A stretch of 64,000 nt of DNA from the NCBI GenBank assembly GCA_947561715.1, contig OX387197.1, positions 23,276,266 to 23,340,265 of the forward strand, read 5' to 3'. Below are positions 1 through 53,932 of the stretch, piece after piece. Below the pieces are notes generated by a model that saw only the letters and a program-made list of their open reading frames with translations, had not been told where the DNA came from and did no database searches. Numbering within the stretch: the first letter of the stretch is position 1; each line of letters begins with the position of its first letter. The stretch is from Ascidia mentula (taxonomy: Eukaryota > Chordata > Ascidiacea > Phlebobranchia > Ascidiidae). Position numbers and translations under genes: made by a program.

Positions 1-101
1 TTTCTCAAAAAACATGTTTCAGTTTAATGTGCACAATACCCTTTTGCCTAAATTGTGTATAAAAAACATTAGCTGAAAAAAATCAGGACACAAAAACTTA
101 C

Positions 102-1990
102 CAAGTTTTGAACCATGTGAGGTCGTTGCATTCTTAAACATTTTACAATCTGAAACATGTCGAGGATTCCTTCTGCTTTGACCTGCTCAAGGGCAGTGGA
201 GAGCGCGCAGAAAGCTCCTGTTCTACCAGCACCAGCACTGAACGACAAAAACAAGCTCTTTAAAAATGAAACACACTTCGGTCCATATGTGTCAGACATA
301 TTTTGCATTTCTGCACCAAATCATGTAACTGTTAAATTTTGCAATGAAACACAGCTGTAAATCAAGGTGTGTTAGTTCAAAGAATAAATTTATGTTGTGA
401 ATGGTGTGAGTTCTTCATATTGTTACCTGCAGTGGATCACAATGGGATGATTTCCTGATGACTGTTGCTGTTTTTGAACTTGTTCGACAAGGTCGATCAT
501 ACTGTAACCAGACACTGGAGGGCCAGTTTCAGGCCAACCGTGATAATGAAACTGAAAATTAAAAATTTTTATGGTAGGTTTTGAAATTTGCATGTCGTCT
601 GGGATAAATCGTTACAAGCAACAAAGCATATACAGCAGTTTTCTGAGAACTATTAGCCCTCCTGAACAGATTGGCTTACATATCAAGTATTCAAATTGTA
701 TGGCTTTTTCTCCATTATACTAAATATGTAAAACCATTTCACTAAATATGCAAATACTTCTCAAAACATTTACAAATATACCTTATGCAAACCCTTGCAT
801 ATAAACTTTGCAATAAAACACATCAATTTTGCATACCTGTCTAACAGACTGTTTCCTGTCTGCATTGTTGGCACTAGTAATGACGAAATCTCTCGTGGAA
901 TAATGTTCAGTTTCATTATTACCCACATTATCTACAGTTAATTCACCATACACCATCGCACTATCCATTGGCCAATACTGCTCACATTTGGCCTGAAAGA
1001 CACAAAGATGTTGTAAATATGGATTTTTTTAGAATAATTTTTCAAATATATTAATTTTTCCCCGATTTACGTATTTCAAATAAATTATTTTTAAACTTTT
1101 CGTAGTTAAATGTTTTACACCAAATTCGTAATTTTCTGAACCAGCTTTCATTTTCTGCTAGTAATAAGACCAGAATTAACTTAAACTATTACAAAAACCA
1201 ACCTGTCCTCTTTCCACAAGCTCAGTAAGCATTACAATAGAAGCAGATTTTGAGTCCCAAACCATCCTCCAGAAATCTTCGACAGTATGTGGAAGAGGGC
1301 CTTGGGTAGCGATGTACGCATCTTTCTGCCTGTATCCCTACATTACAAACAACAAACGTTATGAAAATTAAAAATTAAAGTTAAAACATCTTGAACAAAA
1401 CTTTTAAGTGTTACTTCACCAGGTTAATAAAAGTCATTGGTATTTTTACATAAATATGATAAAATACATACATCTATATATGATGCATTGATGTAGTCTG
1501 TGTTCTCCATTCCATTTCGAATTGGGAGAATTACTCTATTCCAATCATCTGCAAAAAACAACAGCAAAGTATCATTTAATGGCTGTCCTATTAGGTAATA
1601 ATGAAAGAAGAACATACATGGTAGAATGAGAACAACTCTGTTTTTCCTCATATTTGCCGGGTGGTTCCCTGCTCTCATTTGCTCTTTTTGGATTCTGATG
1701 GTTGTAAGTTTCTGAAAAGGGCAATAGTTTGTTTTGCAACAACAACAGAAATATGTTAGTAAAAATACGTCATCCTTAACCAGGCAAATCCATGGTTCAA
1801 ACTATAAAAACTGCCAATAGAAAGCAGGGAAATGACAACATACCCTAAACTCATGTTCCATTCCAGTTACATTTCCAGGAAGTCTTTGATTGAGTTCATC
1901 GATATGTGCGTTGACCTCGGTGGCCTCTACCTCTGTGTCTCCGTACAAGTGGTGTTCAAGCAAGGCATTGTATATGAAGATATATTGTTG
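102..1990 (-). other. PTP domain 2 of the receptor phosphatase (PTPRA-like, WPE-type)
   Basis: Eight exons from 1844-1990 to 102-237 encode the inter-domain linker ([15 protein letters not shown]) and the second PTP domain. It keeps the P-loop [10 protein letters not shown], but the KNRY motif reads KNRV and the WPD Asp is Glu (HGWPETGPP). The same two substitutions occur in PTPRA domain 2, which has only weak activity and a regulatory role. The visible sequence stops after [12 protein letters not shown] at a good donor; the final helix is off the window. Confidence 0.92.
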
Positions 1991-4900
1991 CTGAACGTAA
2001 AATTCACCTTTTTTTATTCACTGTTTTGTTTTTTCTCATAACGCCTAAGGCATGTCAACTATATCTCAGTTAAAATGAACTACTTCAATTAAATCAAGAT
2101 AAATGATTTATTTTAATGCAAATAATTTTAACACAAAAACTTATGCAACCTGAAATGGAATGTTTCTCTGTACAGACAAATCATCAATGCAATTTTACCT
2201 GCTTTTATTACTTAATATACATAGTTTAAACAATAACTATCAAATAAGATAAAGAGGTACATTGCCACAAATCTGTACATCATTTTACAACCTGCTAGAT
2301 TTTGACAACTTACCTCAGTTTGAACCATCTCTGGTCTCTGGCTTCTCATTTGTGAGACAAAACCGTGAACGTCGATCTTACTTTCCCTCAACATCATGTC
2401 CACCATCGCATCGATACAAATAAATGTTCCCGTCCTCCCCACTCCAGCACTGCACACATAATTTTTTTTCTTCAATATCTCTAAATGTGTTGACTACTTG
2501 CTATGGCTATGATAAATTGGCCTGTGGTTATCAAACAGTGCACCATGATACCCTGGTGCATCATATTGTGTTTCCATAACTAGAATAAACACAAAAATTG
2601 GTTTTTGGAAAACAGGTAATTAACAAGTTGAGACAACCTTCTAAGACCGAAAATTGCGAAAAACTAAAAAGGTTTAAGAACCACTGGCACAAGTGGTGTT
2701 TTTTTACCTGCTTTAACAAATCAAGCACAAAATTTGTGTATACCTGCAGTGGACGACAATGGCTCCATATCCAGTTGGGCTGCTGTGCTTGATCTTTCTC
2801 ATGAACTTAAGCATGCCCGATGGTGATTTTGGGACGCCAAAATCGGGCCAACTTGTGAAGTGATAATGCATGAGGTTTCGTCGCATGCTTAAAGTTGCAT
2901 CGCCCCGCATCTAAACAAAAACAAGTATATAAAAAGCAATCTACACAAATCTGTTTGTTATTTGCCACCCACCTGTTGAATGGTAAATTTTCTGATCGTG
3001 TAATCGACGAGTCTGTTTTCACCTTGAAACACGACACTCAAATCACCATACACCGACTTTCCCATGGCCGGCCAGTATTGAGCACATTTAATCTGCTTCA
3101 AAGAAAAAAGTAACACAGTTTCAATTAAAACGAAGATTTTGAAGACTTTCAATCAAAAAGATATTGTCATTACTGAGAAAAACCCATAGCAAATCACAAT
3201 TAATGTATATTTTGATTAAAAAACTACTGTTGTTCCAAAAAATTGCACTATGACATCACAAACCTCTTTTCCCTCTTCCAAGTTTGTCACCATTATAATG
3301 GTTGTAACATTCTGGTCCCAAACCATCCTCCAAAAATCGTTGATGGTGCCTTCCTTTGGGCCCTGGGCTGCGATAAACTTCCCTTTGTGCTTGTATCCCT
3401 GTTAATATCAAGATAGGTTGTTGACCTAAGTTTTACCACCATTATGTTATTTCTAATGCACAAACACATTTGTAACAATTTCCGATAATAACCAATAGCA
3501 ATAATATTTGACAAAAGAATGGGTAAAAAATTTTCAAAATATTTCAAACACCACCGCACGACTGCAAAAGAAAATATATTTCCTTACATCGACAAATGAC
3601 GCATTGATGTAGTCACTGTCATTTGGTCCAGACTTGGGCAAAATCACTCTTGAATGGTCATCTAACAAAACAACAAGAATATTTAGGAAAATATGAAGCA
3701 AAACTCAACCAATACAAGATTTCTTTCAATCAAATCAGTTAAAATCTTTGTTTCTCTGATAAATGTAAAATTGAGTGTATGAGGTTACCAATAGCAACTT
3801 GAACACTCACATGGCAAAATGTTGGTGTAGCGATTTTTGTCTTTGTTTTGAATTTTTCCGCCAGCTTCTCTGGTGCCATGCCCATCAGGTAAACTCTGCA
3901 AAACAGAAATTTTTTCAATTGAAATATTATTTTTCACTAATTGACCCCTCAATAAAAGCTAATAGAACAAAAAATATAACTCCAAAAATTTAAAAACAAT
4001 TTAGATTACAAACTTTAACAACAATTGCAAAACTTTAGGATAAACAATAAAGTCCATGTAGCTGATGTGAAAGTTCATTAACAGTGATTGTAGCTACGAT
4101 CGAAACATTTGCAAATGAATTTGACATCAGCTATGAAGGCTCTATTGTTTGTCTGAAAAATTTACAAAGCCATGAGTTATGTTCTTAAACTGTGAAACAT
4201 CGTCAGAACAAAAAAACATTTTTTTCTTTCAAAAACACTTACAGAAAACTCTTCCCGGAACAACTTATCGTCATCGGCATGTCTTCTATTAAACTCAGAC
4301 TCGAGTCGGTCGAGTGGAAGCGGGGCAAACTTGCTACGTGTGCTCCCGTTCGGAACCAGTTTCTTCAACTCACTCTCATCGTATCTGTTACTAAAAAGAA
4401 ACAGATATAAGTATGAGCCACACAACAAATTAATATGGGGGAATTTAAAACCATTGTGTTGCTTTGTAGGCCACACACATTTCAGATAAGAAGATAATAT
4501 ATTGTTACAAATTTGCTGATTGTGTGAATATCCACTGAGCCAAACATAAGAACAATAATCAAAATGTGTGAAAGAGTAAATGCCTGAAATCTAATTAAAG
4601 CCTTTAAAACATCAATTTAATCATACAATACTGAGCAAATACATGAAAAGCAGCCAACATAAAAATTACATATTTTATAATGAAAGTGTTAACAAAGGTT
4701 TTTTATCGCCGGCACCAAATCAACAAAGACCCTCTTACTGTTTCCACAACGACCACCAAGAATGACAGTGAAAACACTTGGAACTATGACATCACAATTA
4801 GCTGTTTACATTGCACAGATATAATGGGTCTGACTTATTCAGTCTCTACCAGTTAATCTATATTTGGTAATAAGAGCTTCGACCCAAAGTGAACCAGGTC

Positions 4901-7900
4901 AAAACATGGAATACTCGATCAAATCGATGAAAAAATTCAACATTTCTATGTCAACCTACTCATGAATGGGTGAAAAGTTTTTCCGGTAACTTGTGGGTTT
5001 TTTGCTGCGTTTCTTCCAAATAACGCAAACAATAATTGTGACTATGATGAGAACCAAAACTCCAACTAAACCGATGACAACTGGAATGGTGGGGAATCCT
5101 GCAGCAGATGGATCAGCACTAGGGTCGACCTCTGGGGGTGTCGTTGACATAGTTGTGCTTGGGTCTGTCGGGTTTCGAGGAGCTAAAAAGAAAAAAATGT
5201 TGTTAAATGCAACTGATATTATGAGACAAAATTTAACCACAAAACAATGAAAATATTAAACAGCAAAACCAGCCTTATCCTGTTTTATCAAATAAATACC
5301 TTTTACAAATTTTTACAGAATAAGGATACGTAAAACTGCATCTTTAAACTGACAGGGGTTAAAATGTGGCCTGTGTGGGTCCATGCAATACACCTTCGTA
5401 TAACCAAATGTAACAGTATTTACCAGGCGGCTTTGTTTCTTTTGTTGTTTTTGTCCCAGTTGTGTTTTGAACAACGTTTGTAGGTGGTCTTATCGTTGTT
5501 GGAGGTTTTGTTGTTGTTGACGTAACAGAAGTAGTTGGAACGGTAGTTGATGCAGTTCTCTGAGTTGTGGTTGTGGTTGTCTTTTGCTTTGAAGTTGTGG
5601 TGGATTTAGTGGTCATGGTGGTGGGTTTAGTCGTAACAATAAAATCTGTACAAAGAAAAGGTATATATTTTAAAAAAAGTGTAATTTAAAAAACTAAAAT
5701 TTTTTGTAAAAACAAACTTGTGCAGTTTTAAAAAAAGGGCAAACAATGAAAAATCTTAAGCTGACAGAAGAACAATAAAAATGCACCATGTATGGATTTT
5801 TCTGCCCAGCAATATTGAGTGTGTATAATGTACATGAAAAACATATAATTATGCTATAGAACATGCCTAAAACAGTTTGAATTGACAGCGTTATGTAGTC
5901 TTTTTAAAAAATTGTGACATAATTGCAATAGCGGTGAACGGCCTCTATGATAACAGAAAGTATTACCTATACACAGTGTACTTTTTGACAAACCTATGAA
6001 TGTTATTTGCTTTTCACAAACTTGTATTGGAACTTACCTTGTATCCACAGTTAGCAACAACAAACCGCAAAACATAACTGGTTTCAATTTCTCAGACCAA
6101 ATTAAACTTTTATGAATACAAGACTCTAACAATCAAATAAAATAAATGACAAAGAAAAACATATAAAAACCCCCAAAACATCCCAGCACAGTCACTTCCA
6201 ATTCACAATTGACCACTCCAGCAAACAAAACTACAAGCTGAACCAAAACACATTCAATGTGATTTGCCTGGAAGTTATTTGGTCACACCTGGTCTGACAA
6301 ATGATCGGGAACTGACAATTACGTTTGATTCTAACACACTGCTTCCCCTCAACGTCAAGCACTTTTCCTTTTTCTCCCTCTTAAGTGGTTTTTCGTCAAG
6401 TGTCAAATTACGACATTTCAACTGGTTAAGACGTGTCTGTCGTTACGACAATCCGCTTGTAATCGAGTTCAAAGCAGTTGAAAAGATTGGCCCTGAGATG
6501 TCAATCATTTTTTGATAAGTTATATACTAACAGTCAACCACAAAGTGGCCATGAAAATAGCATGTGTAATAATTGTGGTTAAAAAAGCAATCCCAGCTAA
6601 TTCTGATTTCTAAAAGAATAAACAAAACTTTAACTTGACTTAATAGTGTTGCTTTGACTAAAAAAAAAACACGTTTCCCATACTTTTTCTGCCACAACTG
6701 AATGTTTAAGTAACCTTGGGCAAATCTAATGACTTATTCACACATTAAAATACTAAAAGCTGTCAAAAGGGTTTGAAAACTCTGCTCATTTAAAGGTCTC
6801 GTCAAGTTTTCAAACAGCATAAGTTAAACCTTAAAATACTAAAAGCTGCCAAAAGGGCTTTGGGGTCTAAAAAAAGGGACCAAAATGAAACTGGTCTAAA
6901 CATACATTTAACATCCTGAAAAACAAGCTAAACTTGCACAACTCAACCATTCATGGTATCATATTTTAAATACTTTTTAATTAGCAGCAGCCACTGAACT
7001 TGCCATACAGACTAAGCTATGGTATAAAATGAAATCATCGGATTTGTTGGGAAAACCTTTACATTTGTTTACACGGTTCCTTTCTCTTTCCAATAAAACA
7101 TTTTCTCTCACCCATTACTCATTACTTACTGCCATAAACATGGGCACGGTTTACTCTAATATGCCATAAAATATGAATTGTCCACAGCCAACTGAGCTTC
7201 CTGTGTTTGGAAAACTCACATCAGCAAAGTCTTTCCTGTCTCATTAATAATTAACATCTCAAGTGCATCTTGTGGTTTCCACGGTAATGGGTATGAAAAT
7301 GGAGAAATGATTATTGTTCCTGTATATAGGATGGTGAAAGATTTGAGTCCAGGGAAACACATTTAAGACATTTCGGGTTAAGGTCCATAGTATTACGGAC
7401 AAAGAGGATAATGTAGGACTTACTAATCCATTTCTCCAAAGCATGTTGAGGTTTAACTGTCTAGATCTGGTCTGAGATGGATAAATTGTATGATTCATTA
7501 CTTGTTACACATTTACGCCAAGAAAACAAGAAAATCCATAGTAACCTTGCAGCAAGCTAATAATGTCCACAGTAATAAATGATTTCAGACTACTTACACT
7601 CAGTAAAGTTCTGATGCTCTCCAGACATGTTGAATGACTTGTTTCAAATTAAACAGTTACAGGAGAAACCACAAGATAAATATTAACACTTTACAACCTG
7701 TTTCTCCCTGAGATAATACATGAACAAGGCCCAGTTGAAGGTAAATTGTAACAGCTAAAACTTATTCCTATATGAAAAGTGGAAAGAATAAAACCTTTAC
7801 CCATTGCATAAAATTTACATTTTAAAAATAATTACTAAATATCAAAAAATCCTCACACCCCAGTGGAAATAAATGCCACCAAAACTTGATTGGGCAGCTA

Positions 7901-10900
7901 CCGATGACATTCCTTGAAAACTAAATCTCAAAACTGTTGAAATCTCGTTTTTACTGCTGTCTGAACCAGTTGACCAGGCTGGATATAAAACATTGTCTTG
8001 TTGACTTTCCACCATCAGCGGAATCTCCGTTGCCTTATGTTGCCAAACACAAGTGACATTTAACAAACTACTTGAACCAACATCACATTTATGCCGCTTT
8101 ATTAACTGCCAATACATTCCGATAGCCTTAAGAAATTGACACAGACATAACTACCAAGATTTATCATGACCACTACTTACAAGCAAGTAACAACTTGATG
8201 TTCAGAAGTTCTAAGTAACTGAAACTGCAACTTTAAATAATAACATCCATAACTTAACAAGATTTGTCAAATTGTTCCTCTTTACCTCTGAAGAAACTCT
8301 GAAGATTTTTTCCTTTTTTCAGTCATACATCTACTCTACCTCGGTGTTGAGGCCCCAACAAGCCTATTCACTGGTAAACAATGACAACCAGATACAAAGC
8401 TTAGCTGTCATAAGCCAATGGCTGGCGAAGGAAGGTAATCTGATTAAGGTCTATTGAAAGTAATGAATTACGTCCCTAACAATCCAAGTTAAACATATTC
8501 TGGAAGGTGCTTGTATTTCTTGTTTTAAAACTATTTATAATATCACTGATACATGGCGTCTCCACCCACATGAGCCCTTATCTACAATTTGTGGCGTCAG
8601 TCAGGTCAGTTTTATACAATCCTGAAGCTAGATCAACCACGTCATTTTCAACTGATAAAGGCATAAGTTCTTGCCGAAACATTTTGAATAAATAAAACAT
8701 GTCAATGTTTTCAATAGTATTGGCCAGTTTCTTTATTCTCAGAATTATGAGAATTTGTTACTAGTGTTCCTAAAACTATTTAATTACAAAACAACCTACA
8801 TCGGAGATCATCACTGAAAAACTAGTTAAGTTTTGCATTCACACCAAAACACTACAACCGATTCCACGAAACTTTTCTGAACAGATTTACATGAAAGAAA
8901 CATTTTTGGGAATTCATTTCTGGGTTTAGGACTTGCACATTGAAAAATGGAAAACAGAACTGCAGGAATCAACTAAAATAATTATAAATGTTGCTAACTG
9001 AAAAAATATGAAGACTCTGATTTACATGCTGATCCCTATTCACTGCAGTTCAAGTCGAATTTGAGAGATCCCGAACAATAATGACGTAATTTGGCTATTT
9101 GTGATCAACGTTCATGATATGCGTAAATGTCCATTGTCCATGTTACGTATACGCAACACATGCATATAAACAAGATACACAAGCAGATATAAACCAGGTA
9201 AACCATGTATATTATTGTTCTATTCCGATCAACTTACTGCACACAGGTGGTGTTTCGGGAGACCAAGACTTGCTGGCTGTACACACTACGTGGCTCGGTC
9301 CAGATCTTTCGTACCCAGAGTTGCAGAGGAACGCGCATTGCTCGTCAACATACGGAGTTGAGTTGTTCCTGCCCGAACAAACTATTTCACCATGCTTGAG
9401 TGGTGGCAGGGTTTGACATTGGATTTCTGCAAAAATACATAAGATTATGTTATTGTGTTTTATTTTCCAGTTGTATGCTGCTTAATTTTACCAATGTATA
9501 GCAACACAATGCACATCAGAAAAACTTCATTGAATGCTGCACTACTACTTTTACATGTGACGTATTTTACAAAAAACAAATGCTATGCATAATAAAGTGG
9601 TACATACTAATACAGAAACAGCAATCAAAAAAGGCATATATGTTTAAATACCAAAGAAACAAAATATGACCAAACACTAACATAAGATGGTATTATATAT
9701 ATTGTCAAACTTACTTTTGCATGTTGGTTTTTTGGATGTCCATTTTCCATTTGTTCCACAGGAACGACTGTGCACACCCACTATCTCATAAGTTTCATCA
9801 CAGGTAAAATCACACGAGGACTGAAATTCATTGGCGAGATCACAACTTTGTGTTCCATGCTCGATGATCTCACCTTCATCAGGGCATGTGATTTCTGAAT
9901 GAAAATTATGTCGATGGACATTGACACTTTGGACTTTCATTGAGTTGTTAATGCACTGAACTGATGGTGTTGGCTCAACTCAAGCAACATATAAAACTGT
10001 TATAAATCGCATACCGTATTTTACGGACCATAAGGCGGTTTTATTCTATAAAAAAAAATTGATTTTTGTTGTTTTTTGATTAAAATTTATGCATTCCGAC
10101 TGTACAGCAATATTTGTAGATTGTTGAAACATAATCAAAACAAATGCTCTTACTTTTACAAGATGGAGCCCTGGTATTTGACCAACCATCAGCATTACAC
10201 TGAGTTCTCGAGGCCCCCTTTAAACTAAAACCTTCCTGACAGTGAAATTGACAAACTGATCCATAATTGCTAAAGTCGGTGCATGAGACTTTCCCATTGC
10301 TAGGGTTGCTGAAGTCAGGGTTGCACGTTATTCCTGAAAAACACAAAAAAAATCTTACAAAAAAATGAGAATTAATGAAACAAATTTAATACCATAGATT
10401 GTAAAGAAAATAATCGCATATTTTGCTAAAGCCTAAATGTAAAATTGTTTTATCCACATGTATAAGTCCTAGAAATTGTTTTTGAAAGGGATCATTGTTG
10501 CTTTTTTATGGTGTTTTAAACAAATTTAATTCAGTTGACCCGATCAAAAACTGTTTTGTTTATTTTGTGTACAAGAATCTACTTTATCCCAATGAACATG
10601 GGTTATAAGAGCTGTGGCCACTCACTTTCACAATAAGGTAATACAGTACTCCACTTTCCTTCCAGCAAACACTCAGTTGATTTTGCCCCAATTAAGTTGT
10701 AGCCGACACCACAAGAAAATGAACAGGTTGAAGTATAGAATGAACCATCAGTACATGACACTCGGCCGTTACCCAGGTTTTCCAACGATGGGCAAGAGAT
10801 TTCTGGATAAAGTTTCAGTTAAATATTACAGGAGTATGTTGAGGTGGAGGAACAAAAGTGCAAAAACAGGAAAAGTCAGATACATTTACATACTTTTGCA

Positions 10901-13900
10901 TACTGGCTCACTGTTGTCCCAATCTCCCTTTTCATTGCAAGTGAGTAGCTTTTCACCATTCAGTGAATAGCCATTGCTGCATGAAAAAGTGCACTTGCTC
11001 CCATATTTATCTTCATTTGTGCATTTCATGTTGCCATGAGTTGGAGCCTGCACTGGTCTCGAGCAGCTGATGCCTGACACATAAAAAATGTTTTTTACTC
11101 TTATTTCTTTGTTGAAAGTAAGGTGAGAAAACAGAAAAAAAAAAATTTTTACGTAAAAATATTTAACATGAAAATAGTACCCTTTCTGAAAAATTAATTG
11201 GCATTTGCACTGACATAAACATATCAGAAGTATCGTTCATTCAATTGCATGTGAAACCACGATAATAATAAAACTAAAGGATTACAAAAATTACTAAAAC
11301 TCTCATAAAAAATGGCATGTAATTTGTACGTTGGCATGAAGGAGTTTCTGAATAGGTCCAAGTTTCATCTGTCTGACACGATGTTTTATTTCGCCCGATA
11401 AGCTTAAATCCATCACTACACGAATATGTGCATGTCAGTTTTCCTTTCTTGGTACATTTGATGTTTCCATTTGCTGGTTGAACCAAGGAAGGACAAACCA
11501 AACCTGTCACAAGATAAAAGGAATTTTGAAACGAAACTAACTCGCTACTTTTTTTGAACAAAAATTTTTTAATGAATGCCATTGAAATACTGCTAATGGC
11601 CACAATGATTTTCAATTAAAAATGGTAACATTCTTTGAAATTGCAAATAATCAAAAATTATTATTTATGAATGATTGACTTTACAAGTAGCAGGACTTAT
11701 AACATTGGAAAATCATACAAGGAAAAAGGAAATTTCAAATTTCTCAATACGTACGATCACAACTGGGAGCTTGTGCATCCCAACCATTCGCTGTACAGGT
11801 GGTTTCTGTTGCTCCGTACAAGTTAAAACCTTCCTGACAGCTAAAGGAACAGTTTGAGTTGTAATTGCTCCCATCTGTGCAGGCTACTTGTACTTTACGG
11901 AGGTTTTTAAACTCTCTGCATCGGATTCCTGCAAAAAATTCACAAATATGTGTTTATCACTACTTTCATGAGAATATAAGACAGCATAAATGAAAAAAAT
12001 GGCTGGTCAAGCAATTATTCTCTGTAAACAACAGGATTTCAATCCACGACTCAACTGTTCCCCAAAAAATCTAATCCAGACCCAAGTTGTACCATACAAT
12101 AAAAAATGCTAAAAATACTGCATTGAATACACATTCGTATTCTGTAATGGGGAAATATGTGCAAATACCAGGAAGTAAATATTATTGTATGCACATAAAT
12201 GACAATGAAATCTACTCACTTTTGCAATCAAATGGTTCCCTTGACCAAGAACCATTAGCTGTACAGAAAGCAGGTGTAACAGTATCGTCGTCTGGATTCC
12301 TTTCTATGTAACCCTGTCTGCAGCTGAAGAAGCAGTAAGACTTGTACAGATTACCCTCCACACAAGATACTTTACCATTGCGGGGTTTTCTGATTACAGG
12401 GCAAGTCACAACTGAAAAAGTAAAATACAATTTCAATACATCAGAAGATAGAAGTTTTAATGAATGATAAAAGTTTTTAATAAATATATTATTTGGATTG
12501 GATTTCAGTATTTTTGAAAAAAGGTTTTTACACAGTAGCGGGAAGGTTTTACACAATTTTAGGTGGTTAACCACATGTAACAAAAGCAATTCTCAGCAAC
12601 ATCAAATAATTTGAAAATCATTGCAAAACTGATCACTAGGTGGTGTAACTGAGTCAACTTTTGGCCTACAAAATATTCATGAACATTTCACATCAGAAAA
12701 AAATGTACTAAACACAATAGTTTTGTGTACATTGATATATATATATGCATATATACAACGGTATATATATATATATGCATATATATATATATACCGTTGT
12801 AGGTCTCAGCCATCCGAGCAGTTTTTTTAGATACTAATCAAATCTTACTTTCACAATCAGGAATGGAGTCACTCCAACCACCAGCCCCACATGTTACTGT
12901 TTGTGATCCATTAACCATGTAGCCTGTGTTGCATGTGAATGAGCATTGTGAGTTGTAGAATGAACCTGCTGTGCACTGAACATCCCCCTTTAGTGGCGCT
13001 CGCAAAGTTGAACATTCAATGCCTAAAAACAGGTATGTGCATTTTAAAAAAAATTTAATTTACCTCAGAACGAATATTTATTCCAAAAAATCATTTTTGT
13101 TACTGTTGAGAAAAGGATTTTGAACACTTTCACTATGAGAATTTGCAAAAATTTTACCAAACATTTTACTTTTGAATTCAAACCAAACAGTATGGGTAAA
13201 AATGATAAATTGTGTCCAATAAACCAAACCTATTACAGACTAAAAAACACTGAAAAAATTGATAATCCAGATACTGTGACAAATAACATGAATAGAAAAC
13301 ATACGAGTGCATTCCGGGGAGCCGAAATCCCATCCATCTGCAGTACAAGTCAGTGTCTTCTCCCCCTTTACTTGATATCCAGTGTTACACGTGTATGTGC
13401 AACGCGAGCCAAAAAAACTATTGTCCGAGCAAATAACTGAACCATAAGTTGGCCGCGTGAGTTGACTGCATGATATTCCTGGAAAAAAAATAAGGCATTA
13501 TACAATGGGTCATTTTTTTCTCTTGAGACTTTTATGCTATTAACTATAGTTTGCAGACAAAATTCAGCGTTGATATCTTAAAGAATTCACACACTTATTC
13601 ATTAAACATGTACAGGTTGAAGTTCAACCACTTAATTGTTACTTGACAATTAAATCGCATTAGATCAGATAATATCACTGCTGTTTTTGTATTTTCTGTT
13701 CCAGTTAAGTGAAGAAACCTGCATACAGTTGATGGACTCACGTGTGCAAGTAGGGGGCGCTGCACTCCATGTGCGATCATGATTACAAACTGTCGAGCTG
13801 CTCCCATCGAGAATATAACCAGATTGGCAAGAATAACGACAAACTGAACCAAAGTATTCCCCATCTGCACATGTTGTACTTCCATGGCTGAGAGAGTTTA

Positions 13901-16900
13901 AAGCTGGACATTGGATCTCTGACAAATATATACAAATAAAGTTACTTTGTTGCATTGGAACCACTGACAGAGTGACTCAAAATATGGACAGGCTCTGTAT
14001 TAGGGTGTACTGTAATTTATAGAATGAAAAAAGTTCCATAGACAAAAAAGTGCATTACTAGAGAGGAAGTACTTTTTATGTTTAAAAATGGTTTACATTT
14101 AGATCCCTTATGAAGTTTAGTGTCGGCTGTAACTGTAATATATGAGTCTTTTCTGCACAACCAGCAAATGATCTTTCAGTAACAACATAAATTTCATACT
14201 AAAGATTCAAGAGGTGTACACCATGCACTGACTTTGCGTTTGGCCTAAAATTACCTGGTACACAAAATAAATAGTTTTTTATGACTAGCAAATTTATTCA
14301 GCAAACTTTGTACTTTGGCAAACAGGAATAGAAGCATCCCATTGTTTTGTTGCAAGACATTGTCGAGCCCCAGCACCCACAAGCTCGTATCCTCTGTTGC
14401 ATGTGTACTTGCAAACTGACTGATAGAAACTGCCATCAGAACAGTTGACTGCTCCGGAAGCGATGCCAATCTCCACAGCATCAGGAGTACAAGGAGAACC
14501 TAAAGAAAATAATTTACTGTGAATTTACTTCATGAAGCACTTTTATCAAGAAAAGGGGGTTTTGAAGTGTTTTTTGCTTGTTTGAAGAATGAATGACACA
14601 TAAATACAGGCCTTATCAATACACACAATGCAGTGTTGGTGATAATGCAAATAGCGTTAAATCTTAGCATAAAAACAAACCAATTATAGACACCAGCTTG
14701 CTGAGAAATTTTTTCAAATTAAGTGCAGAAAATTACAAAGTGGGACCAAAATGTCTACCTCACACATAAACAAAGCACAGGCATTTGTTTCACTAGAACA
14801 CCAGTTGGAACATAGATAGGGATGTGTTTAGTGATAACACGGAGCCTCGCTAGACACACACTTCTTGATGAGAGAATATACCTTTACAACACCAGACATA
14901 GAGACTGTGGGGTCGGCTTACAAAAATAACAGAAATTCCATTTACGGCAACTCCTGCTTTGTTAACGAAAACACGAAATAGGAGCACACAGCATCACCCT
15001 GTTTTGATTTTAGCACTCAACATGTCAGGTTTTGTAGAGCAAAGCTTTATGTGTTCTATATGAGTGCTGTTTTGTTTTTCTTGTATCATTTTTATTTTAA
15101 GTCAATATGAAGCAAAATTTCTGACCAAATTTTTTTTAATCTTTGCAAACTTTGGTTCTTGGTATTATAATATTTCTTATTTCTACATGAATTCACAGCA
15201 AAACGTTTCAAAAAATGTTCTTTGAAATGCATGACGTAAACCGTAAAAGCTTACTGGGACAAACTCTCTCTGCAGACAAAGACAAGACAGTATTGAGAAA
15301 CACACTTTATATAGTACAAGTTTGTGTGGGAATTTTAATGCCTTTCATGTGCTTGAATATTTTACATTCCAGACATGTTAAGATTAAACACACAACGAAT
15401 TGAGCGAGTAACTGGACAACGTTGTTTGGTCAGTCCAATCATCTGTCCACATCTCCTAACTGACCCAGGGTTAAATAAACATAAAATGTCCTAACGGCTA
15501 CTTACAGAGCCTGAGCAATCAATGACAAATGATGGTGGAATTGGAAAAATAAACAGTTGGTTGCCTGGAATTGCCCATGTCGGGCTGGATTTAAAAACTT
15601 TACTGTTTCTTTGTCAACTGCTCTGGTTTTTACTTTGGTATTTAAAAAACTTGCAACAGATTGGAGTAATGTAACATATTTTGGAATTTTTCTTAAATCT
15701 AAATTATTTTTGCAATATTTGTCAAAAAACTTTTTAATATTTTTTATGTGTGAAACTTTTTACTACTTACGGTTGCAAGTCGGAGCTGGTTTGTCCCAAA
15801 CCCCAGTGTCAGAACAACTGCTCTGTATGCTCGATCCTTCAATTTCATAGCCAGTATTGCAACTAAATATGCAACTGGAGTCCAGGTAGTTTAAATTTGA
15901 GCAGGTCACCTCTCCATTGTCTGGTGCTGACATCACCGGCATGCATATAATGCCTAAAGAAATAATTTATTCATGACTGTTGCTAACACACAAAAATTTG
16001 TGGTTTGGTGTTTTGCACATTGTATGTGTCAGTGCAAATTTAAGAAGAAAATTAAAATTCAGAAAATCAAATTGAAAAGCAAAATACTAAAAAAAAAGTT
16101 GTGTATCCCAATAAAAATCTTATAATAATGGTTTCTGTAAATGTACATGTAGAAAGAATTTTATTTACATCAAAACATTTTTTGGGTCATTGTTATTGGT
16201 TCCAAAAATCGTCCTACAAAATGCCCTCATAAAATTTACAACTGGATAAAAATTGCCATGTATGTTTGACAGTGTGGTTGAACTCAAAACAACACGTACG
16301 TTCACATGTGGTTGTGGAGGCATTAAACATTTCGTTTCTCATGCACACAGCAGGATAGTGACCATTCCGTGGGAGTCGATAGCCATATTCACACCCGAAG
16401 TAACATTCAGAACCTTGGTAGGACTCAAGGGTACAAGAAACTGAACCATGATCAGGTGTTACAGGGGAATTTTTGCATGGAAAGCCTAAAAAGGATAAAT
16501 ATTTTATTAAAAAAGGTCAGTAAAATAAACAAAAATTATAAGTGTATGCAACAAAGTGACATTCAAAAAAAATTATACAATACTGTATATCTCTGAATGA
16601 CAAACCCAACCACCAAATCACAAAAACTAAGATTTAAAAAAAACAGAAAATTAAATTCACAATATTGATACACTAAAAGGCAGACATTGTGATTTAAAAC
16701 AAAGACATTTCTTGGCAACAACAGCTTATGTGTTTTTAAATTTTCGTGTCTATAACATGACAATTCTGTTTTAATCATCATTACCCTGCATGGATGTTAG
16801 ATCTGTGGTCCCAGCATCAACTACTGCCATCCAGTGGCTGGAAGATGATGAGTAAGTAATTCTTCCCGTATCCGAATCCAAATACCGGTAGGAGTCAGAG

Positions 16901-17807
16901 AGGGAAGTAGTTAATTTATCGTAACTCCAACGCTGGGCAATAACGGAATTATCGCAATCTGCAGTAACGACGAGAGAACCGGAAGTGGTTCCATTGGTCT
17001 GAATGCACTTTTGAGTTCTTTCGTTCTTTAACATTTGGAATGAGACCCACGACCAGAGCTGGGAGTCATCCTGTGCATTGCAACTGCTGACGACAGCCAG
17101 GCTTGGTGAGGATGTGAGTGTTGGAGTGTCCATAACAGTTAAACAATGGCCATTTTTTGATTCAATCTGGAAAGTTGGACCTAAAAAAAGACAAACAAAG
17201 TAAAATACCGTTTTCTTTATTTGCTGGTTTAGGGGCTAATGCTCATACTATATTTTAGCTGTTTGGTATTTAATCTGCTAAAACCAATAATTTTTTATGT
17301 AATTAGGTTGAGAAAAAAAACTTATGCTTAAGTGGTGATCTTTAGTTACAAACACACAATGAGGTCTATCAATGGATGTTTCCGGTTTGGTAACATTATA
17401 CGCTGGTCATCCACAGAAATTCATTAACCTGATAGTTTGGAAAGGAAGGAGTGAAGATACATAGATATTGGTGGCCATTTGCTAATACTTCACATTTACT
17501 ACTTAAAATATTTTTTGCAAGAGGCGGGTAATTGTAATACTAGCACTAGATACAGAAATTTAAAAAGAAGAACACCGTTTTTCTTCACTCGATTCCCTTA
17601 TGAAAGTCAAGTGAAAGTATTGTCACAAACGCAAGGTCTGCATGACTTTCCCATCCAGCTTATGCAGTTCAACTCACTGCAAAGCGGGTTTCCGACAAAT
17701 TGAAAGAACAAGGGATTACGCGCGAGGCTGGCAAATATTGACAAAACAGGGCAAAGAACGGCGAAAGCAAAGCTTCGGGCGGTGCTTGTGCTGCGTAATT
17801 GCGACAT
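102..17807 (-). CDS. Receptor-type tyrosine phosphatase with ricin-B lectin, 14 sushi domains and tandem PTP domains (C-terminus off window)
   Basis: Single-pass receptor predicted to dephosphorylate phosphotyrosine at the plasma membrane and to bind a glycan or protein ligand outside. Thirty-two exons read right to left: 17720-17807, 16785-17180, 16300-16485, 15771-15953, 14314-14499, 13742-13918, 13305-13478, 12849-13022, 12220-12411, 11755-11928, 11330-11503, 10894-11073, 10626-10802, 10154-10333, 9715-9894, 9238-9426, 5424-5645, 4960-5182, 4243-4390, 3811-3895, 3588-3661, 3264-3398, 2973-3092, 2744-2910, 2314-2449, 1844-1990, 1618-1711, 1472-1548, 1203-1337, 837-992, 427-551, 102-237. Every junction has GT/AG and the sum is exactly 1,730 codons. 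The intracellular part matches vertebrate PTPRA/PTPRE along its length, including the inter-domain linker. I know of no vertebrate PTPRA/E with sushi or lectin domains. The last exon, expected to encode a few dozen residues after HMVQNL, lies left of position 1. First-exon choice is the least certain part. Confidence 0.9.
2314..4390 (-). other. PTP domain 1 (catalytically complete) of the receptor phosphatase
   Basis: Eight exons (4243-4390 to 2314-2449) carry the juxtamembrane wedge ([11 protein letters not shown], as in PTPRA) and the full PTP fold: pTyr-recognition loop [26 protein letters not shown], the WPD loop (TSWPDFGVP, general acid Asp), the P-loop [10 protein letters not shown] split over two exons at 2744 and 2449, and the Q-loop [13 protein letters not shown]. 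All residues needed for thiol-phosphate catalysis are present, so this domain should be active. Confidence 0.93.
4041..4150. repeat. Palindromic MITE-like element in the receptor phosphatase intron
   Basis: The ends form an imperfect inverted repeat: the left arm begins AAACAATAAAGTCC and runs into AGCTGATGT, and the right arm is ACATCAGCTATGAAGG ending CTATTGTTT. Both arms are about 27 bp with a few mismatches, around a loop containing ATTTGCAAATG. A related sequence lies at 29963-30047, so this is a dispersed family and not a single hairpin. It lies in the intron between exons 3811-3895 and 4243-4390. The family is not recognised. Confidence 0.55.
4960..5645 (-). other. Thr-rich mucin-like stalk and transmembrane exons of the receptor phosphatase
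   Basis: Exon 5424-5645 encodes a run dominated by Thr, Pro and Ser (for example [18 protein letters not shown]), expected to be heavily O-glycosylated and extended. Exon 4960-5182 continues the stalk ([19 protein letters not shown]), then a hydrophobic helix ([20 protein letters not shown]), then the basic stop-transfer WKKRSKK. The next residues enter the juxtamembrane region ahead of PTP domain 1. This gives a type I topology consistent with the signal peptide. Confidence 0.9.
5646..9237 (-). other. Large intron between the last CCP exon and the stalk exon
   Basis: This 3.6-kb gap splits the otherwise compact receptor gene. No exon with matching phase was found. It contains a short direct repeat (about 31 bp, 6745-6775 and 6831-6861, core AATACTAAAAGCTG) and a strong-looking minus-strand donor at 6037 (see rejected items). 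Otherwise AT-rich sequence without recognised features. Confidence 0.7.
9238..16485 (-). other. Array of 14 sushi/CCP domains, one per phase 1-1 exon
   Basis: Fourteen consecutive exons (174-192 bp, all divisible by 3) each encode one complement control protein module. Nearly all have the four-Cys pattern, a G.(V/T).C step early, a Y....C.(F/Y).C core and W......P.C at the end. The final module (9238-9426) leads into the Thr-rich stalk. The first module (16300-16485) lacks the usual Trp before the last Cys. Sushi domains mediate protein contacts in complement regulators, selectins and cell-recognition receptors. Because all boundaries are phase 1-1, modules can be skipped or duplicated without breaking frame. 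Confidence 0.92.
12755..12800. repeat. Perfect 46-bp AT-rich palindrome
   Basis: The sequence reads ACAACGG, then TA repeats, then ATGCAT at the centre, then TA repeats, then CCGTTGT. It is an exact inverted repeat with no loop, adjacent to another TA-rich run. It lies in the intron between two CCP exons (12220-12411 and 12849-13022). Such palindromes can extrude cruciforms and are often length-polymorphic. Confidence 0.85.
16785..17180 (-). other. Ricin-B-type (beta-trefoil) lectin exon of the receptor phosphatase
   Basis: One 396-bp phase 1-1 exon encodes about 132 residues beginning [15 protein letters not shown]. It contains two QxW-type motifs (QLWSW and QRWSY), the hallmark of ricin-B lectin repeats, plus CIQTNGT and a Cys pair in the spacing of beta-trefoil lectins. 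The final repeat is weaker ([12 protein letters not shown]). The domain sits at the membrane-distal tip of the ectodomain, so it is the natural candidate for ligand contact. Sugar specificity cannot be read from the sequence. Confidence 0.8.
17720..17807 (-). other. Putative first coding exon with signal peptide of the receptor phosphatase
   Basis: An ATG at 17807 opens 29 codons starting [13 protein letters not shown], followed by a hydrophobic run ([16 protein letters not shown]) typical of a signal peptide, with a plausible cleavage after SLA. The exon can end at 17720 with the donor GTAATC, a weak consensus. This leaves one base that completes an Arg codon with the first two bases of the lectin exon, so the phase fits. 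No other upstream ATG with a hydrophobic run and matching phase was noticed. A further-upstream first exon cannot be excluded. Confidence 0.6.
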
Positions 17808-20800
17808 GTAACCTACAATAGAAGTCTGGATTGTTTACTTAAGATTTTCTCAATACTTGGAAGCGAGCGCAAAGTGCTCTGACAAAACGACCAGATTGTG
17901 ATGGTTCTGTACCGTTAGGGCCCTTGTCGGGCTTCGAACACTTGTTTTGTGGAATACCACGAAAATCAGGTATTTTTCCTGTGAAACCATGAATGTCATA
18001 CTGTTATGTTGATGTAAATTAACAGTACAGCCAGCAAGATGTTAGAAACCACCATATACTTAAGTACAGCTCTAAGATTCTGTGCAAAGATTTAAAAAGC
18101 AGATATATAGTAAAGCATGTAAATTGTCATTAAATCTTGTTCCAGGTGGAACTCAAATGTACACATTTTGCTGACCAGTACCACACCTTTACCGGCCGAA
18201 CCAACTGGGTCAAGAGAGAGACAATAAATAACGGTCAGTTTCACACAAAAGTCTGCGGCTACTTAACACTTCGTTTACATCCACTCGTATAGTCCAAACC
18301 AATCCATTTAGTACGTCATAAACTTTATCGATCACCGGACTTATGACGTGTGAATTGTGCCATTCTACGTGTGAAAGGCCATTGATTGCGCAACAATTAT
18401 TGAAGAATTTATGACAATGGAATGGTGCCAAAAGCATAAGTGGCTACGATCATATGCCATCATGTATAGATTTAATTACTTGAAAGTAACTGAAAAAACA
18501 ACAGAAACCTTGAATGCAAAACAAGAGTGACATCTGAACTCAAAGTTACAAAATATAGGGAGTAAGAATTCAAATGTCTTATTGATGTTATTACAAGCAA
18601 CAATAGGATTGACTGCAAAAATAAATCTAAGAAAAGTATGCAAGAAGTTCAATCCATTGTGGCCCCATTGTCAGTGTTGCAATCGGCCAGCACCATTTAA
18701 ACTCTTACAGGAATTAACAAAAAGTTCTCCAAAACGTTATGTGCTCAATCACCGATATCGACAGGAGTATTCTTCGAGTGAGATAACCTTCTTGTAAGAA
18801 AAAACCACAAGCTGAGAATATTGACAGACGTAACCACCCACACTGCTCGACATGCGGTCCTCGAAATCTACATACATCACCATGTTCACTCGAACTGCAA
18901 TCCCTGTGAATTGAGCGCTGGGAGTTGTGTGTCAGAAAGATAAGAAAGTAAAAAAAGCAAAAGTAGTAAAATTTGAAAATACTATTTTTAAACAAAAATG
19001 TGCATATACTTTCCCAAAAAATTTACATAGATATGCAACTGTACTACTTAGCTATAACACAAGAATCATCCCCCCCACCCAGTGCGAGAGACCGGCCGGT
19101 CAATGTTACCCCAACGTATCCCGCTGAGCGGAAGAAGGAATTCCAAGACAGTGACGGCAACCTTATTATGACGTAATGAGATTACCATGTACGCATGCTG
19201 TGTCATCTTTATAGATTCCAGACGACAATATTTTGTGGGCGACTAAATTTGATAAAACAAAATAATAAACCTTTTCAAGATCCGGTTTTGCAAGGAAAGT
19301 GTAACGACATTTCTAAATATTTAGCCTGTTGAGAAACATGTGTAGTTTCACAATGCATTTAAGCAGCATCTTTTTTGTTGCTCGACGGAAGACAAACTCA
19401 ACGGCAACTTGGTTTGAAAAAGCAACACTAATCTAACTAAGATGGTGCTTTCCCGCTTGGAGACACAGCAACTGGCCAATAGTGTTCCCGGGTCATTCCA
19501 CGTGACCTTTAGACAACTGCCCATCCGCTTTACGGATGGAGAAACGCCCGTTAGGGGATTGAATGCTTACTCACTATGCATGACGTAATGAACAGCGGGC
19601 GACGCGTATCGGCAAATAGTGATGAACAAGATAATATCAGCGTATCTCGAAGACTGCAATTTGAGCGTGTGACGCCAGATGTTGTCGGCGTAGAAATTAT
19701 GTCGAGCGTAGCTGATAAAATATGACCACAAAGGCAAAGGCGCACTTTCTCACGTCTTGTAGGAGGTTTTGAAAGTCGATTACCACGAATAAAAAAACAG
19801 TTTTTCAATGGTTACCATAGATAACAGACGAATGGTTTAAACATTGTCATAATGTAAATTTAAAAAAAAGTACTTTTGCATGGCCTTTCGTAAAAGAAAT
19901 ATAACTTAAGTCCGTAATGTCCGCTAAGCCATCAAATGTTCCGCTAAAGCGTCATGCTATGGTTGATTGCTGTGACAAGCTTTTAATTTGAAGAATGTCA
20001 ACCCCATTAAAACAGCTGAATCCGGTGCTGGTATACCCATGGGACTAATGCGTCAAAATGCCAATGTTAACACGTACGACCAAGAAACTGGCGTCAAAAC
20101 AAAATGGTTCAGAAACAGTGTTCAAACCAAAGTTCAAGCAATTTTTTTGCCCGTTTAGCACGGTTCACTGCGTACACATTCGAGTATTATGTGTATCCAA
20201 TTTATATAAGCAAGTTATTTGTGCAACGATCTGTGATATTTGTCGGTTATCATAATTTCATAAAACGTTTTTTAAACGATATGTGTCTCCGACACGAACA
20301 TTCTATTATTACTTCCATACTGAACAAAAAATAGGCACTAATCACAACCCACCCAAATGACATTGAAATACTTGCAAGACAAAAACAGAATTTGACAAAT
20401 AACAACCTCGTGTTTACACATTACGATTACCTAACGGCAAAGCTAGCCAAGTAACAAAATCATTTTACAATATAGGTACCGACAGCCTTGGTGAAAAACA
20501 AACTATTGCGACGGAACATAGCGTGTAGATATTGATTTTACGACAAGTTCTTGGTTAGACATCAATAAAACACCAGATAATCCCATGGGTATAAATGGAT
20601 TGAAGTTTACGGGACCTTTCAAAAAACCAAAATACACACAGAACCTTCGGACAAAATAACGTTCATTAGAAAAAAATCTATTTAAGAATTTGGTGAAACC
20701 AGGACAAAAACCAACATTTAACAATGGACTTTGTTGTGAAAAGAGGATTATTCTGCCGAAAACAGTCTGGCAACGAGTCGAAATATCGATCGCATATTGA

Positions 20801-24229: not shown

Positions 24230-25255
24230 CATGTGTGTTGGGTGACAGACATCTGGCCGATGCCCAAGATTGTTTATGCGATAACTTTTAAAGGATTTCT
24301 GCGACACATTTTTGCAACGCGAAATTCCTTTTTTGGTTCATCACGGCAAGATTATAACGACGTAAAGTTGCTTAAAAACGTTTAGGACAATTTGATTCGG
24401 CTGTAGTTTCCCTGATCCCGAAACACAAAAAAGGCACGAAATTTATTGCGAAGTATCGCTGGGATCGCTAACGCAAATTATACTAGAGTTTCGCTTTCAA
24501 AATGAAAAACCAGGGGTTGCACTCTGGCTAACAGAAGTAAATTTCCAAAAGAAGTGCTCAGGGCTTGAATAAATATTCCCCACTGACGGAAGATGACGTA
24601 ATCGCAAATGCAAACAAGTGTGACGACAAGTGTTTAATCGACAGAAAGGTGCCAAGTTAGTCAAGTGGAACTTGATCAATAAAACTATGTGGGAATAGAA
24701 CGCACAAGTGTCCGTCTGGTAGTTTATGACTGCTTCTTACCAACCACGCTTTGAGATTAAAACCTGCAAGTTTTTAGCTCACATTGCCAAGCAAAGGTTG
24801 CAAGGTGTTTACGGAAATATATAAATACTTTGTTGTAACATTTAACACCATACTGACATGACTTAAATGCTTTTGATTGGAGCATATTCAAATTATGATA
24901 AAGTTTTAATACGGAAAGCAAATGCTTTTCAAGAAACTTGTACCAAAGTAATACTGGAAATGCTCCTTCCTTAAGCTTTTAATGGCCACTTTCAAGTCCA
25001 AAAGTAATAATCAAACTCCCTAGAATATCATAAAAATCTGATCCAGAATGCAAAGTATTTGCCTGGGGCAAAAATTTGCTCAACTTGTTAAATGTGGTTT
25101 AATTGTCTTCTTTATTCCGGCAATAGGAAAATATTAGAGTTATTCAGGAAGCAAATACAGGAAATGTTGAACATTATAGTTTCTTGCAATTGGTTAGGAC
25201 TTACAGATATTTTATTTTGTCTAAATCATCAATTTCTTACAACCTGTTTTTGGAA

Positions 25256-25902
25256 TTATCCTGGATTTGTGTAGACTGAAAAAATAGAAATTAATATGCA
25301 AAAAAATATCCTTACCAATTGGAGTTGGAGGGCAGTAGCAGCATGCAACACGTATCTTGTAGTCGTTGCAAAGCAAGTTGCATGTAAAACCAGTATCCAC
25401 AGAACAAATGACACCAAAATCAGCTGGCTGAACCAGTCTTTGATATTCTACATTGTAGCACTGAATGTCCACAGGCTTTTCACAAAACTGATATCCCTTT
25501 TTTCTTAATTCTGCATAACTCTCAATGTCAACCCCGAAGTTTTCTGCAGGATTATCTCCATTCATCCAAGGTGACCAATCACATGAACAATTTTCTTGTC
25601 CTATAAAAAGTGTAAATCAATTGATGAAAGCAGTTTGGGCAACAATAAAGAAAAATTACATGGCACCAAAACTGTTTGTTACGAACAATTTATATGGACA
25701 CTTCATGACTACAAGTTTATGCCAGTAAACATACCTATGTTACAACTTAACAAACATTACTTAAATTAAATGAACCTAATTAAAATTGCTAATTAAAGTT
25801 ACCATTGGGTGGTGTAATTGGGTCGTCAGCTGACATTGTCCTTGTTATGTAAAATACACAAGTCCAAATTGTAAGCAGGGGCAACTTTGCTTGCGACCGC
25901 AT
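25256..25902 (-). CDS. Small secreted WxxW-domain protein, copy A
   Basis: Three exons: 25803-25902, 25316-25600 and 25256-25275, totalling 405 nt (134 residues). The start MRSQAKLPLLTIWTCVFYIT is a signal peptide with likely cleavage near MSA. The mature protein carries one WxxW domain (CDWSPWMNGDNPAENFG, then GVDIESYAELR, QFCEKP, IQCYN, ICSVDTGFTC, CNDYKIRVACCYC). This is the Cys-rich module found in gel-forming mucins, CILP and otogelin-like proteins. The last exon adds only VYTNPG and a stop, and copy B conserves this boundary. Expected to be extracellular; function unknown. If intron 2 were retained, the tail would be about 30 residues longer. Confidence 0.85.
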
Positions 25903-30925: not shown

Positions 30926-31923
30926 GTAAGTTGTTACGTTCAACCTGCATTTGGCCAAAAGTCATGTGTGCTGGGTTACAGACATCTGGACGATGCCCAA
31001 GTTTGCTTATGCGATCCTTTTCAAGGATTTCTGCGGCACATTTTTGCAACGCGAAATTGCTTTTTGGTAAATTTATCACGGCCAGATTATAACGACGCGA
31101 AGTTTCTTAGATACGTTTAGGACGATTTGATTCGGCTGTAGCTTGCCTGATCCCGAAACACAAACGTATCGCTGGGATCGTTAACATTTGTTTGAAAATT
31201 ATATTAGGGCTTCACATACAAAATGAAAAACCAGGGACTGCACTCTGGCCGATACAAATAAATATCCAAATATGCAAAAAAAGCGCCCAGGGCTTGAATA
31301 AATATTCCTTACTGGCGAAGATGACGTAATCGCAAGTGCAAACAAGTGTGACGGCAAGTGTTTAATCGACAGAAAGGTGCCACGTTAGTCAAGTGGAACT
31401 TGATCAATAAAACTATGTGGGAATAGAACGCACAAGTGTCCGTCTGGTAGTTTATGACTGCTTCTTACCAACCACGCTTTGAGATTAAAACCTGCAAGTT
31501 TTTGGCACACATTGCCAAGCAAAGGTTGCAAGGTGTTCATGGAGATACTGACATGACTTAAATGCTTTTTATTGGAGCATATTCAAATTAATAATAAAGT
31601 TTTAATAAGGAAAGCAAATGCTTTTCAACCAACTTGCAAAAAAACTATTGAAATGCCCCTCCCTTTTAATGACCAGTTTCAAGTCCATAAGTTAATATCA
31701 AACTCCCTAGAAGTTCATAAAGATCTGATCGAGAACGCAAAGTATTTGCCCGAGGCCAAAATTTGCTTAACTTGTTAAATGTGATTTAACTGTCTTCTTT
31801 ATTCCGTTATTCAGGAAGCAACTACAGGAAATGTTGAACATTATAGTTTCTCACAATTAGTTAGGACTTAACAGATATTTTATTTTGTCCAGATCATCAA
31901 TTTCTTACAACCTGTTTTAAGAA

Positions 31924-53562: not shown

Positions 53563-53832
53563 AACTCCTGTAGCTCAGTTGGTAGAGCGTTGGGCCTGGT
53601 TAGCCAAAAGTCGTGAGTTTAAACCTTACCTGGAGCTTGATTTTTCAAATCTTGCTCCGACTTGTCGTGAAAAAGTGGCTGATCCAGCTAGGCTGCATTA
53701 TCTGGGCTGCCAAGCGTGCAAACCTCATGATCGCAATACGTGAGCTATGATCGCCAAGCAAGGACCTGTGCAGTGGGTCGATCATGCCATTGCATGTGAT
53801 ATCACTGCGGTATTTGCAAAGCAAGTGAAACA
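53563..53832 (+). mobile_element. tRNA-derived SINE, copy 1
   Basis: The head has a Pol III A box (TAGCTCAGTTGGTAGAGC) and B-box-like sequence (GAGTTTAAACCTTACC). It is followed by a tRNA-unrelated body (GCTCCGACTTGTC, GTGGCTGATCCAGCTAGGCT, GCAAACCTCATGATCGC). The same head plus body is found reversed at 59,833-59,998, and the body alone at 54,703-54,865. That makes it a SINE family and not a tRNA gene. Confidence 0.8.
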
Positions 53833-53932
53833 AGGATTTTACAGATTTGGGTCATAAATGTTAGTGTAAATATGAATATTTAGCCGCATTATTACAATGT
53901 CAATATATTCGTTTTTCAAGGTTTTTATTATT

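Follow-up and report, generated by a model that had tools for sequence, protein, structure and literature searches.

Vertebrate PTPRA and PTPRE are receptor-type protein tyrosine phosphatases (RPTPs) with very small ectodomains, and it has long been uncertain which ligands they bind and how they are regulated. These ectodomains are short and glycosylated and are not known to contain folded modules. Long tandem arrays of complement control protein (CCP, or sushi) modules are found in the complement proteins CR1, CR2 and factor H, which are not known to carry a phosphatase or a ricin-B domain. PTPRA is described in PMC7959691 as dephosphorylating the inhibitory Y527 of Src and, when phosphorylated on Y789, as recruiting Grb2, Src and BCAR3/Cas. 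Among tunicates, CCP modules have been described on recognition-linked proteins, namely Ciona vCRL1 (PMC5465252) and Botryllus fester (PMC12065747); both vary between individuals, and no tyrosine phosphatase tail is described for them in the parts of these accounts that we draw on. The gene analyzed here lies on the minus strand of a 64,000-nucleotide window of the Ascidia mentula genome (contig OX387197.1, positions 23,276,266 to 23,340,265) and joins a ricin-B-type lectin domain and 14 CCP modules to a tandem phosphatase of the PTPRA/PTPRE type. No description of this lectin/CCP/phosphatase architecture was found in the open-access literature, subscription papers falling outside the scope of that search.

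The genome searched comprises 195.8 Mb in 79 contigs, and the window is located on the contig designated C1. Each exon of the gene model was anchored on a peptide encoded by the minus strand. Splice sites were first picked automatically and ten of them were then corrected by hand on the basis of domain homology (CCP 3, 9 and 10, and four exons of the first phosphatase domain). The gene comprises 33 exons and 32 introns, all of the GT-AG type, and a single frame running through all 33 exons to one stop codon encodes a predicted protein of 1,768 residues. In the order from the N-terminus to the C-terminus, the protein consists of a signal peptide, the ricin-B domain, 14 CCP modules, a threonine-rich stalk, a membrane span (residues about 1121–1146, assigned by eye) and the tandem protein tyrosine phosphatase (PTP) domains. 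The original prediction placed the gene at positions 102–17807 of the minus strand, which our independent rebuild reproduced for 32 exons, and its exons indeed join in frame. Its count was 1,730 codons, whereas the rebuilt splice choices give 1,744 codons within the window, 14 more. Exon 33 was absent from that earlier model; it lies to the left of the window, in the flanking locus L009 (-91 to -165), and encodes the end of the second phosphatase domain and the C-terminus, EQYEFCYRAVQEYIDSMSEYYNFK, followed by the stop codon. We regard the gene structure as real; the lectin/CCP ectodomain stands out on a PTPRA/E gene that is conservative in other respects. This single gene for a type I membrane receptor probably corresponds, in tunicates, to PTPRA and PTPRE of vertebrates; the assignment is based on the cytoplasmic part of the predicted protein, and the gene is not a standard PTPRA.

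The cytoplasmic part aligns end to end with vertebrate PTPRA and PTPRE through the linker and both PTP domains (D1 and D2). The Pfam family Y_phosphatase matches two stretches with a score of 572.9 bits. Comparison with proteins of known structure yields 881 bits for PTPRA and 789 bits for PTPRE, followed by 579 bits for PTPRF/LAR. Both the match to PTPRA/PTPRE throughout this region and the ectodomain plan described below had been proposed in the original prediction, and both are confirmed. D1 retains the catalytic motifs KNRY, WPDFG and HCSAGxGRTG together with the Q loop QRPEMVQ. D2 carries WPETG, such that the pairing of WPD in D1 with WPE in D2 is the same as in the vertebrate proteins. 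Also shared with them are a threonine-rich segment preceding the membrane span and a terminal Tyr-x-Asn-Phe tail. The C-terminus reads YYNFK (residues 1764–1768) and its first tyrosine is aligned with that of the PTPRA terminus YANFK; we take Tyr1764 to be the equivalent of PTPRA Tyr789. The whole predicted protein contains four YxN motifs, the number of YXNX motifs given for the predicted Ptpra of Ciona robusta, the same gene by name (PMC11728170, 2024).

A genome search with the cytoplasmic part as query yielded 81 matches from the 71 of 438 candidates that were scored. Within this set, all matches of at least 71% identity belong to the present locus, the others are 35–61% identical, and the search revealed no further complete gene of the PTPRA type. 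An 80-residue exon of a gene at 8.58 Mb of contig C1 is closer to LAR (238 bits) than to PTPRA (189 bits). Two exons weigh against the present gene being the sole representative of the family and may belong to diverged relatives: one from an array on contig C2, which scores 136 bits with PTPRE and 134 bits with PTPRS, and a D2 exon from an array on contig C67, which scores 80 bits with PTPRA and 73 bits with PTPRE and PTPRS.

The ectodomain is where the gene departs from its vertebrate relatives. Assuming cleavage of the signal peptide near residue 30 (judged by eye), it is about 1,090 residues long, compared with roughly 120 residues for vertebrate PTPRA. The short, module-free, glycosylated ectodomain expected of R4 receptors is not found; the lectin and the 14 CCP modules are present, and a mucin-like, threonine-rich stalk of 104 residues is kept (exon 17 and the start of exon 18; 60% threonine, serine and proline). 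The match of the lectin exon to Pfam Ricin_B_lectin exceeds the cut-off of 29 bits and covers profile positions 3–91 of 126. Among proteins of known structure its closest relatives are ricin-type B chains, followed by the cysteine-rich domains of the mannose-receptor family, and a single-sequence fold prediction of the domain gave a predicted local distance difference test score (pLDDT) of 31.6. When read by eye against the ricin-type repeat motif, the canonical sugar-binding aspartates seem to be absent from the exon, which makes sugar binding by this domain doubtful. Genome-wide, PF00652 has 8 matches, 6 of them above the cut-off, on contigs C1 (the present gene), C72, C70 and C69.

The Pfam Sushi family is matched with 316.2 bits, and 13 stretches pass E 0.05 individually; like those for the phosphatase and ricin-B families, this score greatly exceeds chance expectation. 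There are 14 CCP exons, each encoding six cysteines, a property that sets these modules apart from those of CR1, CR2 and factor H; the first CCP lacks the tryptophan. The CCP arrays have CR1, CR2 and factor H as their best matches of known structure, and tandem CCPs of the kind that define RCA-type complement regulators and receptors are present. Across the 91 module pairs, identity is 34% at the median and at most 55%, and thus the modules are not recent copies of one another. Comparison of the lectin domain and the first CCP modules with the genome gave, for the lectin part, one near-identical place, the gene itself. The next best region to match both the lectin and CCPs lies on contig C69, at 27% identity.

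The original prediction held that the in-frame joining of all exons rules out an artefact of two genes. CCP exons are usually of phase 1-1, so the frame alone cannot decide between one gene and two, and this part of the argument fails; the single gene itself is favored by a search for first exons and by CpG content. At the junction of CCP 14 with the stalk exon, donor and acceptor both have good scores and are of the same phase. A strict scan for first exons was defined by an ATG, a hydrophobic segment and a phase-1 donor. Between positions 17181 and 18500 its single candidate was the modelled exon 1. Within the 3,592-base intron that separates CCP 14 from the stalk exon the scan found no such exon, compared with 6 of 24 control windows of equal size that contained one. 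Polyadenylation signals are not in excess in this intron, with two AATAAA (about 3.9 expected) and two ATTAAA (about 3.5 expected).

CpG depletion is a proxy for gene-body methylation, although the pattern known from Ciona may not hold for A. mentula. The observed/expected (o/e) CpG ratio is 0.58 in the PTP part, 0.54 in the stalk and transmembrane part, 0.45 in the intron and 0.48 in the CCP/lectin part, compared with 1.06 and 0.97 in the two 10-kb flanks. A ratio above 0.9 is found in 0.6% of 500-bp steps within the gene, in 92.8% of those in the left flank beyond -3500 and in 63.0% of those to the right beyond 19000, and the 500-bp maximum within the intron is 0.73. In Ciona, gene bodies are described as methylated in domains and promoters as unmethylated, and in one transgenic line a promoter inserted into a methylated intron remained unmethylated (PMC3827831). 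Had a promoter long existed in the 3.6-kb intron, a CpG-retaining stretch would therefore be expected there. The CpG-poor block supports one transcription unit but falls short of proof. Taken together with the matching phases and the lack of a strict first exon in the intron, it leaves one transcription unit the supported interpretation of the sequence.

Several observations weigh against a single transcription unit. Given the habitual phase of CCP exons, the phase agreement at the junction of CCP 14 and the stalk is weak evidence. A relaxed scan of the intron detected two weak signal-peptide-like starts (mean of 1.7 in the 24 control windows). The CpG ratio reaches 0.84 in the 450-bp intron window adjoining CCP 14, 0.89 in 500-bp windows that straddle the exon of CCP 14 and 0.97–1.0 in windows of the D1 part at 3885–4484. 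The CpG-poor block extends about 3 kb past the stop codon. In the array on contig C67 the CpG ratio drops over the CCP/lectin exons and not over the PTP exons, and thus CpG need not track the transcription unit; two adjacent methylated genes could share a single CpG-poor block.

The domain plan, the frame, the D1 motifs and the conserved tail tyrosine are established directly, and upon them we build a proposal for splicing in vivo, ligand binding and Src activation. The stalk would be the short ancestral PTPRA/E ectodomain, probably corresponding to the entire ectodomain of vertebrate PTPRA, and it would have been lengthened by phase-1 exon shuffling, with the lectin and CCP modules inserted as symmetrical phase 1-1 exons between the signal-peptide exon and the stalk exon. 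The N-terminal lectin and the rod of 14 CCP modules may bind a glycan or a protein on the matrix or on neighboring cells, and binding would cluster or position the receptor. Phosphorylated Tyr1764 would then recruit a Src-family kinase or Grb2, and D1 would strip the inhibitory C-terminal phosphate from Src-family kinases. Because the D1 motifs and the tail tyrosine are kept, a PTPRA-like output via Src is our best guess, and signalling by dephosphorylation, as originally suggested, is likely.

The combination of lectin, CCP and PTP modules was also encountered elsewhere in the genome. A search for the PTP family yielded 211 matches from the 150 of 532 candidates that were scored, and within this set the matches are often tandem. 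Twenty stretches of the genome were surveyed; open reading frames (ORFs) were read in parts of nine of them (C67, C2:6.29 and C72:17.0) and eleven were screened by tblastn and CpG content. Contig C67 (4970000–4999999) contains tandem RPTP-like genes with CCP, C-type lectin and membrane-span sequences upstream of the PTP exons. ORFs were read there over 4.971–4.9875 Mb. Five of six candidate CCP ORFs reach the Pfam Sushi cut-off, one of them exactly, and the sixth has no Pfam match. A C-type lectin exon scores 24.0 bits (cut-off 22.6), a second one has no Pfam match and an EGF-like exon remains under the cut-off. In the copy that was read, seven of nine module exons have phase 1-1 sites; the exceptions are a CCP without sites at the threshold and the second C-type lectin exon, which has only a phase-0 donor. 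Upstream of the membrane span lies a weak acceptor in the correct phase, and D2 exons of nearly equal score occur at four places. The C67 repeat unit is likely a CCP/lectin-bearing RPTP gene. Over 4.97–5.03 Mb these genes resemble the present one in that a single repeat unit combines CCP exons and a lectin-type domain with a membrane span and PTP exons, and in a D2 exon that scores highest with PTPRA and ends in YMNF. They differ in that a C-type lectin and a weak EGF-like match replace the ricin-B domain, in their tandem copies, in a D2 P-loop altered to CSDGSSRTG and in a D1 exon that scores higher with PTPRS/LAR than with PTPRA.

A large array of PTP exons occupies C72:17000000–17029999 and about 0.5 Mb around it, with many family matches at 16.9–17.4 Mb; at 17.0 Mb, the sequence between PTP exons includes a C-type lectin exon (30.2 bits) as well as Ig-like ORFs under the cut-off. 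Arrays of PTP genes are also present on contig C2 at 6.29–6.31 and 4.25–4.27 Mb, the first with membrane-span-like ORFs. The array at C2:6.31 Mb is not counted as lectin-bearing, as none of four ectodomain ORFs tried there matched a Pfam domain at E 0.05. At C69:7125000–7139999, ricin-B and CCP repeats occur within an open frame of 3,792 codons, a second lectin and CCP protein. RPTP tails seem either to have acquired CCP or lectin modules on more than one occasion or to have inherited them, with later reshaping.

Three alternatives to a single receptor gene with one fixed product and a PTPRA-like role were weighed. It is possible, and we hold it tentatively, that the exons of the one locus are used as cassettes, exon 1 joining either the stalk exon, to give a short PTPRA, or the lectin exon with a variable set of CCPs. 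Since exons 2–16 are each of phase 1-1 and follow a phase-1 donor in exon 1, any skip keeps the frame, and the stalk is near the size of the vertebrate PTPRA ectodomain. Phase symmetry is, however, general among CCP genes and is no demonstration of skipping. Various splice variants are described for the CCP-bearing complement-receptor-like gene of Ciona (PMC5465252). Skippable 1-1 exons could permit a short, vertebrate-like form.

The original prediction also proposed a receptor for immunity, fertilisation or allorecognition, which we consider unlikely. CCP modules are frequent in matrix and adhesion proteins too. The lectin/CCP make-up by itself implies no recognition role, since the C69 frame and the C67 array combine such modules elsewhere, and the gene is present in a single copy with a best other lectin and CCP match of 27% identity. 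The analogy that speaks for such a role comes from the Ig and sushi domains described for Botryllus fester (PMC12065747) and from the Ciona complement-receptor-like gene, which is described as made by hemocytes and different between individuals (PMC5465252). However, the CpG-poor body suggests gene-body methylation of a broadly expressed gene, as such methylation is described in Ciona as going with conserved, broadly expressed genes (PMC3827831), and in the single published expression pattern that we found for an ascidian Ptpra, the RNA in Ciona embryos is described as mosaic and notochord-specific (PMC11728170). These two hints disagree on the breadth of expression, yet neither points to blood cells or gametes. 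A more elaborate proposal is similarly improbable, namely that tunicates turned PTPRA/E into a pattern receptor tuned by splicing, 15 of its ectodomain exons being skippable. Together with the CCP- or C-type-lectin-bearing RPTP arrays of contigs C67 and C72, it would make up a class of lectin/complement-type receptors that act by dephosphorylation and could set Src-family thresholds in self/non-self or matrix recognition.

Least probable are two neighboring genes. One would encode a lectin-CCP protein, secreted or membrane-bound, and the other, of PTPRA type, would start from a first exon of its own within the 3.6-kb intron or close to it. In favor of this, the intron has about 2.8 times the length of the second-largest one of the gene (1,271 bases), the frame of CCP 14 would meet a stop 8 codons on if the intron were left unspliced, and the stretch beside CCP 14 with a ratio of 0.84 could be read as a CpG-retaining patch. 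The intron is otherwise mostly CpG-poor, has no strict first exon and no excess of polyadenylation signals, and is flanked by good splice sites that share a phase.

The coordinates of the features of this single PTPRA-type gene are listed in Table 1.

Table 1 Features of the PTPRA-type gene in window coordinates.
Feature	Position	Strand	Evidence
Exon 1: start codon and signal peptide, donor phase 1	17678..17807	-	exon table; strict first-exon scan
Exon 2: ricin-B-type lectin domain, single phase 1-1 exon	16785..17180	-	PF00652, 40.8 bits
Exons 3-5: CCP 1-3	14314..16485	-	exon table, Pfam, cysteine count
Exons 6-10: CCP 4-8	11755..13918	-	exon table, Pfam, cysteine count
Exons 11-16: CCP 9-14	9238..11503	-	exon table, Pfam, cysteine count
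Intron, CCP 14 to stalk exon, 3,592 bases	5646..9237	-	CpG o/e 0.45 overall
Exon 17: Thr/Ser/Pro-rich stalk	5424..5645	-	exon table, composition
Exon 18: stalk end, transmembrane segment, start of cytoplasmic tail	4960..5182	-	exon table, motifs
Exons 19-25: juxtamembrane linker and PTP D1 (WPDFG)	2314..4390	-	Pfam, motifs, structure matches
Exons 26-32: PTP D2	102..1990	-	Pfam, motifs, structure matches
CpG-poor block (o/e about 0.5) over whole gene	1..18500	.	runs about 3 kb into left flank past stop

In the remainder of the window (19000–64000) and in the flanking loci L009 and L010, most of the sequence beyond the phosphatase gene has a CpG ratio close to 1. Short CpG-poor patches occur at about 25.0, 32.0, 34.0 and 54.0 kb, two of which overlap a pair of similar Mucin2_WxxW exons on the minus strand (25221–25616 and 31924–32289; 57.9 and 60.5 bits). 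On the plus strand, 30631–31089, 39788–40093, 41476–41748 and 59512–59820 match Kelch, BTB, BACK and BTB, respectively, and are apparently fragments of a local BTB-Kelch gene family. Three similar plus-strand ORFs (45775–46185, 49034–49411 and 53876–54211) have no Pfam match at E 0.01, and a plus-strand exon at 55352–55765 matches Sulfotransfer_1 with 35.5 bits; the ORFs from 45775 to 55765 look like a tandem sulfotransferase family. The ascidian spliced-leader word ATTCTATTTGAATAAG has 2,157 copies in the genome (1,091 and 1,066) and none in the reversed control, which gives good support to a tunicate origin of the sequence. Among the places listed, many copies lie within a tandem array of 719–720-bp units at C1:15239666–15297871.

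If the A. mentula gene is indeed the counterpart of PTPRA and PTPRE, it would provide a relative of these receptors in which a defined lectin/CCP module could serve to capture the ligand. It would also raise the choice between loss of the ectodomain in vertebrates and its gain in tunicates. Receptor phosphatases would then have acquired complement-type and lectin modules within the vertebrate sister group, possibly also in tandem arrays.

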